Part shown: positions 21,417-25,851 of the stretch, in pieces
Position numbering within the stretch: position 1 is the first letter of the stretch
Layout: each line of letters starts with the position of its first letter
IMG/VR virus record: IMGVR_UViG_3300022665_000336
Coordinates: 1 to 25,851 of that record
DNA from: a virus
Strand: one strand, 5' to 3'
DNA: 25,851 bases
Translations under genes and position numbers: made by a program
Notes under the pieces: model-generated
Told to the model about the DNA's origin: nothing
Database searches by the model: none
Seen by the model: only the letters and a program-made list of their open reading frames with translations

Positions 21417-22604
21417 ATGAAAACAGGAATGACAATCGAAGAGCTGCTTACGGAAGTGCAGCGACAGTCACACGCTAAAAAGGATTACGTCGCATCGACC
21501 GAGAACGATGTTCGAATGGTGCCGATGCCCGATTATCCGAGTGGCGTGGCTGTTGTTTTGCAGAAGGGGCAGGATTCGGAGGTTGAGCGTGGGCTTTCGC
21601 AAAATATTGCAGAGTACCTAACGACCCCGGTGGAGCCGCTGGAGCGGTTGGAAGTTACCGAACATGCACATCGTCAGATTGCTGGTCGGTTGCAGATACC
21701 ATGGAAGTTTTATGCACGGATGCTTGATGACCACACCGACATAGTGTTGGATGCGGTCAACAAGTTATTCGAGCGCGAGCCGGGAACTCGCCTGCTGCGA
21801 ACGATGGACAATAAGCTGAGAGCATTCTTGTCGGACCGGTACAAAAGGATCGACAACGATCAGGTGCTTGCAGCGGCGTTGCCAGCGATCGTGAAGGGCG
21901 ACCTCGAAACAGTCCTGCTGAGTTCACAAGTTACCGACAGAAATCTGTATGTCAAAGTGCTTTTGAATGGTGACGAAATGACGCAGGAAATCGGCAGGAC
22001 GCGGGACGGCGGGCCGGATATCGTGCAACCTGGATTCATTCTGAAAAATTCAGAGATTGGATCAGGGTCCGTGCAAATATCTGCCTTCTTTTACCGCAGT
22101 TTTTGCTACAACGGCTGTGTGTTCGGCAAGACCGACGCCTTTCAATACAGGCGCACCCACCTGGGTGGCACACTTATCGAGGGAGCGGACTTCGAAATCC
22201 TATCGGACAAGAGCAAAAAACTCGAAGACGAAACGATTTTGAGTCAGGTCACTGACGTTATGCACGCGATTGCTACACCGGAGTTTGTAAACCAGATGGG
22301 AGCCAAACTGCGATCACTGAAAGAGGGTTCAGTGATTAAAAATCCGGTTCCGGCAATCGAATTACTTGCGACGGATACTGGTCTGACTCAACCGGAGTCG
22401 AATCAGGTGCTACAAAACCTGATAGAAGATCGCGATTACTCAAGGTGGGGAGTGGTCAACGCGGTCACCAAAGTCGCCAACAGCGAAATAGTCAATTACG
22501 ACAGGGCATCGGACCTTGAAGTGATCGGCTCCAAGCTGATCGACATCAACCAAGCCAACTGGAACAGAATGGTCGAGGCCGTTCCCGTTGCAGTAGCGGC
22601 GTAA
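21417..22604 (+). CDS. DUF932 family phage/plasmid protein
   Basis: 395 residues. The middle part has the DUF932 pattern: RQIAGRLQIPWKFYARML, LLRTMDNKLRAFLSDRYKR, the LLSSQVTDRNLYVKVL strand, GFILKNSEIGSGSVQISAFF and YRSFCYNGCVFG. DUF932 genes are common near recT and other recombination genes in phages and plasmids, and their biochemical role is not established. A ribosome binding site, ACAGGAGTAAG, precedes ATG 21417. The gene ends in an intrinsic terminator, so it closes this transcription unit. No membrane segments. The DUF932 call is from motif order only but is fairly sure. Confidence 0.85.
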   Translation: MKTGMTIEELLTEVQRQSHAKKDYVASTENDVRMVPMPDYPSGVAVVLQKGQDSEVERGLSQNIAEYLTTPVEPLERLEVTEHAHRQIAGRLQIPWKFYARMLDDHTDIVLDAVNKLFEREPGTRLLRTMDNKLRAFLSDRYKRIDNDQVLAAALPAIVKGDLETVLLSSQVTDRNLYVKVLLNGDEMTQEIGRTRDGGPDIVQPGFILKNSEIGSGSVQISAFFYRSFCYNGCVFGKTDAFQYRRTHLGGTLIEGADFEILSDKSKKLEDETILSQVTDVMHAIATPEFVNQMGAKLRSLKEGSVIKNPVPAIELLATDTGLTQPESNQVLQNLIEDRDYSRWGVVNAVTKVANSEIVNYDRASDLEVIGSKLIDINQANWNRMVEAVPVAVAA

Positions 22605-22611
22605 CCGAGGG

Positions 22612-22644
22612 TCCGGAGTCGGGGAAACTCGGCTCCGGATTTTT
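22612..22644 (+). terminator. Intrinsic terminator with GAAA loop
   Basis: TCCGGAGTCGGG (22612-22623) pairs with CTCGGCTCCGGA (22628-22639), twelve pairs including two wobble pairs, closed by the loop GAAA, then TTTTT (22640-22644). It separates the DUF932 gene from the csrA-like gene, whose start is 12 bases further on. Confidence 0.85.
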
Positions 22645-22655
22645 CACAGGAAAAC

Positions 22656-22847
22656 ATGCTAAATCTCACCCGCTATCCAGGACAAAAAATAATCGTGACT
22701 CACAAACCAACCGGCGAAGTTTTGACCATCGAGGTCGGCGCCGTTTCGCGGGATACGCAAGTCCGATTAAAACTCACTGCTGGTCCGACCTTCTTGATTG
22801 ATCGGGAGGAAATTCACCTAGAGAAATTGAGGGAACTCGAAACATGA
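22656..22847 (+). CDS. csrA: CsrA-family RNA-binding translational regulator
   Basis: 63 residues, the size of bacterial CsrA. It starts MLNLTRYPGQKIIV, close to the CsrA start with L4 and R6 kept, continues with VRLKLTAG, and has IDREEIHLEKL, matching the VHREEI RNA-binding segment with the key arginine (R50). CsrA dimers bind GGA motifs in mRNA leaders and repress or stabilise messages; in a phage it could regulate phage genes or interfere with the host Csr/Rsm system. An insertion of a few residues occurs around 15-20 (THKPTG). AGGAAA precedes ATG 22656. It overlaps recT by four bases, so it is cotranslated with it. The symbol refers to the family; orthology to host csrA is not claimed. 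Confidence 0.85.
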   Translation: MLNLTRYPGQKIIVTHKPTGEVLTIEVGAVSRDTQVRLKLTAGPTFLIDREEIHLEKLRELET

Positions 22848-23710
22848 CGTTACACGCTTTAGTGGAATACAAAGAAACATTGAACGATCGATCACTCATT
22901 GCCCGGTTCAACGCAGGGCGACCGGACAAGCGCATGAAATATAGCGCACAGAGAAATTTTGCTTTACAGATCATCCAGGGCAGCGAAAAACTCAGAGACT
23001 GTACCCCCGAGTCAATACACAATTGTATGCTCGATGTCGCGTTCACTGGCCTGACTCTTGCTCCAAGCCAATCACTTTTATATCTGATTCCGTACAAAGG
23101 GATCGCCACCCTTTGTATCGGGTATCGAGGAATGGAGCAGTTGGCGTATCGCACGAAAATCATCCTTTCGATTCAGGCTGTACTCGTTTACGAAAACGAT
23201 CCGGTTTTTGTCGTCGGCAGCGGCCCGAATGGCCGTTACATCAAACATGAAGAGGCGCGAAAAGATCGGGGTCCGCTCACACACGCATATTGCGTTGCAC
23301 AATTCGTCAATGGAAAACAACACGTCGAGGTAATGGACGTGGGCGACCTCAACGCAGTTGAAGCGGCTGCGACGAAAAGGAATCCACGCGGCGGCAAGGT
23401 GTGGCGTTCAAAGTTCCGGGGCGAAATGCAAAAAAAGGCCGTGATCCGTCGAGCATGGAAACACTGGCCCCAAGACACGGACGGAAGGCTCGAACAGGCT
23501 CAGACGATTATGGATTCAATCGAGCCGGTCACATTCGAAGGAGAGGCGGTTCGCATCATCAGCGATACGCAGACCAATCAACTCACTGATCTTTGCGCTG
23601 CACATAATATCTCTACGGAGACTGTTTGCCGTGCATTCGGTGTCGTGTCCCTGGCGCTGATTCCAGAAAAAGATTTCGACGAAGCAGTTCGCATGGTATC
23701 GCCGGTATGA
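22844..23710 (+). CDS. recT: RecT-family single-strand annealing recombinase
   Basis: 288 residues. The conserved RecT core is evident: ALQIIQGSEKLRDCTPESI, the helix DVAFTGLTLAPSQSLLYLIPY, then IATLCIGYRGMEQLAYRT (residues about 40-104), and later the KRNPRGGKVWRSKFRGEMQKK region (about 178-200). RecT anneals complementary single strands and supports phage recombination and repair of replicating DNA. The C-terminal 60 residues are less conserved. The start overlaps the csrA-like gene by four bases (ATGA). An exonuclease partner (RecE or YqaJ type) is normally next to recT but none is found in this window. No single-strand binding protein gene is visible either. Confidence 0.9.
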   Translation: MTLHALVEYKETLNDRSLIARFNAGRPDKRMKYSAQRNFALQIIQGSEKLRDCTPESIHNCMLDVAFTGLTLAPSQSLLYLIPYKGIATLCIGYRGMEQLAYRTKIILSIQAVLVYENDPVFVVGSGPNGRYIKHEEARKDRGPLTHAYCVAQFVNGKQHVEVMDVGDLNAVEAAATKRNPRGGKVWRSKFRGEMQKKAVIRRAWKHWPQDTDGRLEQAQTIMDSIEPVTFEGEAVRIISDTQTNQLTDLCAAHNISTETVCRAFGVVSLALIPEKDFDEAVRMVSPV

Positions 23711-23994: not shown

Positions 23995-24024
23995 AAACAA
24001 TTTTATTGGTAGCTACATTACCAA

Positions 24025-24120
24025 GCCGAGCATAGCGAAGCCTTGCCGAGCACGGCGCAGTATAGCCAAGCTGGGCAGAGCATAGCGGAGCCAAGCAGAG
24101 CACAGCACAGCACAGCACAG
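24025..24120 (+). repeat. Array A: GC phased every 5 bases (GCNNN)
   Basis: A G stands at every fifth position from 24025 to 24120 (20 in a row), and it is followed by C in all 5-base units except one (GT at 24060). The three other bases vary, often ending in A (GCCGA, GCATA, GCACA). The array fills most of the 155-base gap between the recT operon and the RAMP-like gene. It begins after ATTACCAAGCC and ends GCACAGCACAGAT. A ribosome binding site (GGAGG, 24141-24145) and ATG 24150 follow. Confidence 0.8.
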
Positions 24121-24149
24121 ATTTTTAGGGTTAACCACTTGGAGGATGC

Positions 24150-24731
24150 ATGAAAATATTGACATATAAATTCACCGGAATTTCGCCTTTGCTAATGGCA
24201 AACATCGAATCAGTGAATCGCAAAGTACCGCAACTGAAAATCGGCACAAAACCGAATAAGGATGATATCAAAATAATCGCAGAGGCTATGACATATCGGA
24301 ACGAAGACAATAAATTCTACATGCCGACACAGGCGCTTCGCTCATCATTGCTAAAAGGCTGTGTAGGTATGAAATTCCCAGGAACTAGACAGGGACCGGC
24401 GAGTATTTTTCAAGCACTGGTGTTTCCGGCAGAAGAAAAGGCGACACTTTTGAATGCAAATGGCAAACCGTTGAAGCGTTACGAAATTCAGATCGATAGC
24501 GGAGTCAATAAAAGTACCAAAAGTCGCATCATTATCGTGAGACCTAGATTCGATTCGTGGTCAATGGTGGTGCCTTTTGAGATTGACGACGAATTTGCAC
24601 CTTCAAACTTCGATGAGTTCCTGGATGCGTTGCTGCGAATCTGGAATCGCGCCGGGAGGACTGCCGGTATCGGGGCTTGGCGTCCGGAGTGTAAAGGGCG
24701 TCACGGACGATATGACGTGGAATTGGTTTAG
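24150..24731 (+). CDS. RAMP/Cas7-like RNA- or DNA-binding protein (tentative)
   Basis: 193 residues. An N-terminal strand with TGISPLLMAN, then KFYMPTQALRSSLLKGCVG (about 52-72), a middle domain with KTSKSRIIIVRPRF-type strands, and a C-terminal glycine-rich segment GRTAGIGAWRPECKGRHGRY resemble the PLxM opening, the P-SSLKG helix and the G-rich loop of RAMP-superfamily proteins (Cas5/6/7 kind). I have also seen similar unnamed proteins in phages next to recT. No catalytic residue can be assigned. It has its own ribosome binding site (TTGGAGGATG) and is preceded and followed by 5-base-phased arrays. The last 22 bases are repeated, inverted, at the window end. Whether it binds the arrays or their RNA is untested. 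No CRISPR array or other cas gene is present. Confidence 0.45.
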   Translation: MKILTYKFTGISPLLMANIESVNRKVPQLKIGTKPNKDDIKIIAEAMTYRNEDNKFYMPTQALRSSLLKGCVGMKFPGTRQGPASIFQALVFPAEEKATLLNANGKPLKRYEIQIDSGVNKSTKSRIIIVRPRFDSWSMVVPFEIDDEFAPSNFDEFLDALLRIWNRAGRTAGIGAWRPECKGRHGRYDVELV

Positions 24732-24826
24732 ATATTATTAAGCAACAACGAAACGCCGCTTCGCAATGCCGCGCCGAGCATTGCCTCGCGATGCTCAGCC
24801 TAGCAAAGCACAGCACAGATATTTCA
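24710..24826 (+). repeat. Inverted repeat, left copy (117 bp, perfect)
   Basis: These 117 bases are the exact reverse complement of 25735-25851; all 117 positions agree. The copy covers the last 22 bases of the RAMP-like gene and all of array B. The outer limit is set only by the window end, so the repeat may be longer. The inner limit is a real mismatch (24827 against 25734). Confidence 0.95.
24758..24818 (+). repeat. Array B: GC phased every 5 bases
   Basis: Thirteen G's in exact 5-base phase from 24758 to 24818, each but the last followed by C. It lies 26 bases after the RAMP-like gene stop and ends GCACAGCACAGATATTT. Inside, GAGCATTGC (24777-24785 region) can pair with GCGATGCTC with one wobble pair and a 3-base loop, so the RNA may form a hairpin. 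The same array recurs inverted at 25743-25803. Confidence 0.8.
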
Positions 24827-24855: not shown

Positions 24856-24901
24856 GCCTTGCGTCGCCAGGCATGGCGCCGCGCAGCCAAGTACAGCACA
24901 G
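24856..24901 (+). repeat. Array C: GC phased every 5 bases
   Basis: Ten G's in exact 5-base phase from 24856 to 24901, followed by C except at one internal unit (GT at 24891) and the last G. It shares the left border ATTACCAAGCC with array A and the right border GCACAGATATTT with array B. A hairpin CGCCA/TGGCG lies inside. The ParB-like gene starts 31 bases downstream. The 201-base gap 24732-24932 consists of arrays B and C plus a short A/T-rich spacer. Confidence 0.8.
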
Positions 24902-24932
24902 ATATTTTGGCCCAAAACTTTGTGGAGGATGT

Positions 24933-25734: not shown

Positions 25735-25851
25735 TGAAATATCTGTGCTGTGCTTTGCTAGGCTGAGCATCGCGAGGCAATGCTCGGCGCGGCATTGCGA
25801 AGCGGCGTTTCGTTGTTGCTTAATAATATCTAAACCAATTCCACGTCATAT
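25735..25851 (-). repeat. Inverted repeat, right copy (117 bp, perfect), carrying inverted array B
   Basis: Exact reverse complement of 24710-24826. It holds the inverted 5-base-phased array (25743-25803) and, on the - strand at 25830-25851, the last codons of a gene copy ending in YDVELV and TAG. It reaches the end of the window, so its outer limit is unknown. Confidence 0.95.
25830..25851 (-). pseudogene. 3' end of an inverted copy of the RAMP-like gene, cut by the window
   Basis: On the - strand, the final 22 bases read YDVELV and TAG exactly as the end of the RAMP-like gene at 24150-24731. Whether a full second copy lies outside the window, or only this fragment was duplicated, or the sequence end is an assembly artefact, cannot be told. 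Confidence 0.4.

Follow-up and report, generated by a model that had tools for sequence, protein, structure and literature searches.

A divergent CsrA-family gene among the recombination genes of a tailed-phage contig and two related phage lineages

CsrA dimers bind GGA triplets in hairpin loops and at ribosome-binding sites and change translation or stability, and the presence of a gene of this family directly against recT on a phage contig raises the question of what a phage might control with such a protein: its own genes, those of its host or the regulator itself. The locus is suited to asking this and represents a concrete test bed, being compact, shared by three related lineages and provided with well-understood neighbours and a conserved leader hairpin.

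We report a computational analysis of this locus in a stretch of 25,851 bases (the window), which is the whole of a virus record. Terminase, portal, capsid and tape measure genes are all present on this tailed-phage contig, which bears out an earlier claim, made in a first-pass annotation, that the gene is phage-encoded. The csrA-like open reading frame (22656-22847, plus strand) begins with ATG, is preceded by a Shine-Dalgarno-like AGGA (22648-22651, plus strand; CACAGGAAAACATG) and encodes 63 amino acids. Phage csrA genes are already known, and the gene described here is a divergent member whose setting among recombination genes is conserved. We consider it probable that its product is a phage CsrA/Rsm protein, expressed with the recombination genes, which as a dimer tunes translation via GGA-containing leaders in the course of infection.

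Family membership and the RNA-binding residues

Profile searches, on which the first-pass annotation had staked the CsrA-like identity of the protein, returned CsrA from both collections: the 63-residue sequence matches Pfam PF02599 (E 1.3e-6; 28.7 bits, above the curated cut-off of 27) and the PHROG family phrog_9500, 'CsrA-like regulator' (E 1.2e-6). The CsrA proteins of the sister phages described below reach 55.1 and 41.8 bits on the Pfam CsrA model and therefore place the family assignment beyond doubt, while making the window protein the most diverged of the three lineages, which counts against the role that we prefer. On the equivalog model of housekeeping CsrA (NCBI NF002469) the window protein scores 16.3 bits against a cut-off of 73, and it should therefore not be named an orthologue of the cellular CsrA. 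A phmmer search of the PDB with the single sequence gave no match; a ten-member profile matched CsrA, RsmE and RsmN there but is dominated by closer CsrA proteins and cannot serve as an independent check on the window sequence.

Alignment with E. coli CsrA confirms the earlier reading that L4, R6 and the REEI segment (R50-E51-E52-I53, equivalent to R44-E45-E46-I47 in E. coli) are retained, and the motifs that mark the family, M-L-x-L-T/S-R at the N-terminus and REEI with the R44-equivalent arginine towards the C-terminus, are both found. The E. coli arginine is, according to PMC7366521, indispensable for RNA binding. The start ML.LTR..G and the block TFLIDREEI are identical in all three lineages, within which L4, T5, R6, G9 and FLIDREEI are invariant and much of the remaining sequence is variable. 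RNA binding by the 63-residue protein may be predicted from these residues. Against the preferred role count the replacement of E. coli R7 by Y and of H43 by D, as well as a beta1-beta2 turn some five residues longer than that of E. coli CsrA.

The fold of the CsrA/RsmA family is one that we take to be five strands plus a helix, assembled as an interlocked dimer. The monomer model of the window protein, which was built on an alignment containing other CsrA proteins, has three strands and a helix with a mean pLDDT of 87, the N-terminal ten residues being the least certain. When the PDB was searched by fold, RsmE was the top match, with an E-value of 0.06 whose weakness again counts against our reading, and the best viral match in BFVD was a phage CsrA, with a TM score of 0.78.

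Conservation of the locus in related phages

Neither tblastn of the 63-residue protein against GenBank phages nor a single-sequence search of IMG/VR returned a relative. These negatives reflect low sensitivity rather than absence, because searches routed through recT and the DUF932-like neighbour, together with a small alignment, did find orthologues. The neighbour searches gave four IMG/VR contigs, all with csrA in the same slot, that fall into two lineages (3300009788_000188 and 3300024265_000259 in one, 3300032105_000061 and 3300010931_000047 in the other), the members of each pair being more than 99.9% identical over the loci compared. The first-pass annotation had proposed that related phages be searched for the gene, and it is present in two further lineages. 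The order DUF932-like gene, hairpin, csrA, recT is common to the window and both sister lineages; in the window the DUF932-like gene occupies 21417-22604 (plus strand; Pfam DUF932, E 4.3e-7; phrog_1362, E 9.5e-44) and recT, for a single-strand annealing protein, occupies 22844-23710 (plus strand; Pfam RecT, E 2.7e-28; phrog_148, E 3.5e-44). Two scans of genome contigs for bacterial relatives found none, and the more distant recT relatives that were fetched, in records that may be fragments, gave no csrA match.

Among the three genes compared, conservation is highest for the DUF932-like gene, with 82-84% protein identity of the sisters to the window, followed by RecT at 75-76% and CsrA at 51-53%. 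Estimates of pN/pS, which are rough as synonymous sites are near saturation, are 0.35-0.54 for csrA against 0.14-0.23 for its neighbours. We conclude from these values that csrA is under purifying selection, weaker than that acting on its neighbours, and is diverging the fastest. Since two other phage lineages retain the gene at the same position under such selection, a chance open reading frame is ruled out. The faster evolution and the weakest family match, both of which belong to the window copy, would also suit a horizontally acquired csrA that is decaying and has lost its RNA binding. We think this very unlikely, as pN/pS lies below 1 and the frame, start, ribosome site and key residues are intact in all three lineages.

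The hairpin upstream of csrA and the overlap with the next gene

In each of the three lineages a stable hairpin separates csrA from the DUF932-like gene. That of the window (about 22608-22643, plus strand) has a GAAA loop and a predicted free energy of about -27 kcal/mol (z -3.9 to -5.9), and its stem ends at 22638 and runs into ATTTTT. The element is terminator-like or a leader hairpin. Its loop strand, GUCGGGGAAA, is identical in the three lineages and occurs as a single copy in the window and in each sister locus searched; the T-run is found in the window and one sister and is absent from the other. The first-pass annotation had argued that csrA follows a terminator and is, for that reason, made together with recT. 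A strong hairpin with a T-run does lie upstream, but the inference fails, since the distance from the end of the GC stem to the csrA ATG is 17 nt, which hardly suffices for a promoter; a scan for promoters detected no sigma-70-type site close to the hairpin. Most likely, therefore, the csrA mRNA reads through the hairpin or starts upstream and carries it as a leader.

Self-regulation is known among members of the CsrA family, and this precedent, together with a hairpin that has the same loop strand in three csrA leaders and GGA triplets at the hairpin tip and ribosome site of each, favours a reading in which CsrA binds GGGGAAA in the hairpin and its own Shine-Dalgarno AGGA, which would double as a possible GGA autoregulation site, and so sets the levels of CsrA, RecT and later products. 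In the predicted fold, however, the GGA is largely paired within the stem and the loop is a GAAA tetraloop, and it is because of this that we treat the tip as a CsrA site only under a rival explanation. Ribosome sites would, moreover, be expected to contain GGA in any case, the sequences do not preserve the ANGGA consensus, and a terminator with a GNRA loop accounts for the hairpin equally well. Autoregulation of this kind thus seems to us rather doubtful. We regard as unlikely the more specific proposal that the conserved leader hairpin at csrA is an autoregulatory CsrA attenuator, through which bound CsrA would time the downstream recombination genes in this subgroup of phages; if true, it would constitute a post-transcriptional clock for phage recombination.

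The four-base overlap noticed at the outset is real: csrA ends in TGA at 22845-22847, recT starts with ATG at 22844, and the two share ATGA at 22844-22847. The accompanying claim of a single coupled unit with recT stands only in part. The overlap exists in the window but is specific to this contig, as the sister lineages have an open reading frame of 73 or 72 amino acids between csrA and recT, with which csrA overlaps, likewise as ATGA. The two intervening frames are, by eye, seemingly unrelated to each other, and a PHROG search with them gave no match. Judged from these sequences, overlap of csrA with the next gene recurs and the partner is recT in the window only. One sister has an exonuclease gene directly after recT (phrog_149; weak YqaJ match), and the other a similar exonuclease-like frame further downstream of recT.

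Proposed role, known csrA genes and further features of the contig

In the role that we prefer, csrA would be expressed together with the phage recombination genes, either from an mRNA that bears the hairpin in its leader or by transcription that passes through it, and the gene after csrA would probably be translated in part by coupling across the ATGA overlap. The putative CsrA dimer would bind GGA-containing mRNA leaders of the phage, the host or both and, once bound, would repress or otherwise tune the translation of these targets during infection. Counting against this, GGA-loop hairpins on the coding (plus) strand of the window show no excess (9, versus 10.4 in shuffles). A CsrB-like decoy RNA was rejected on the same lack of excess and on an Rfam scan of the region, in which no family was matched.

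A survey from 2020 found csrA/rsm alleles in 30 of 2517 phage genomes, and its authors state that loss-of-function tests of the role of phage csrA are still needed (PMC7366521, Table 3). The tailed phages of that survey share with the window a CsrA-family protein, but the window gene lies at recombination genes, and its product has the longer beta1-beta2 turn noted above and gave no tblastn match among GenBank phages. Burkholderia phage JC1 also has a phage CsrA of PF02599, gp47, of which one peptide was detected in virions; this gene adjoins the capsid gene rather than recT, and its product is possibly a virion component (PMC9144972). Vibrio phages 431E45.1, D65 and their relatives have an annotated csrA that is 43-45% identical to the sister-phage protein, but it lies in a region of small genes with no recT annotated adjacent. 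RsmQ is similarly a CsrA/Rsm homologue on a mobile element, but it is plasmid-borne, and host regulation by it is demonstrated experimentally (PMC9928087). In a phage collection csrA matches also came from three 'phage' records, two of them Acinetobacter MD-2021a contigs by name and one a Salmonella contig. The two inspected were rejected as host sequence, with an ordinary csrA among bacterial genes and alaS upstream. Counts of phage csrA from such collections therefore need checking.

These comparisons bear on whether csrA instead acts mainly to reprogramme the host, as a moron or auxiliary gene imitating host CsrA or competing with it, the proximity of recT being a mere landing site. RsmQ takes over host behaviour (PMC9928087), the csrA of JC1 has been treated as a moron (PMC9144972), and in unrelated viral contigs csrA is found near terminase, integrase or exonuclease genes instead. 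The csrA slot is nevertheless constant in three lineages despite the turnover of the next gene, which suggests a role in the phage operon as well. Host reprogramming is thus quite possible, though we lean away from it.

Elsewhere on the contig, positions 24710-24826 and 25735-25851 form a perfect 117-nt inverted repeat, the second arm of which stops at the very last base of the contig; the repeat could be genuine or an artefact of fold-back in assembly. Three arrays built on a five-base AGCNN period (24010-24126, 24754-24824 and 24856-24907) precede genes at 24150 and about 24873; their motif, AGCACAGCACAG, occurs far above chance in the window and is absent from the sister-phage loci fetched. 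Positions 57-827 give a weak match, under the Pfam cut-off, to trypsin-like proteases and include a GDSGS motif, and 1777-2550 match the TET-associated glycosyltransferase family (Pfam TAGT, E 1.1e-10), a hint that the phage DNA may be modified.
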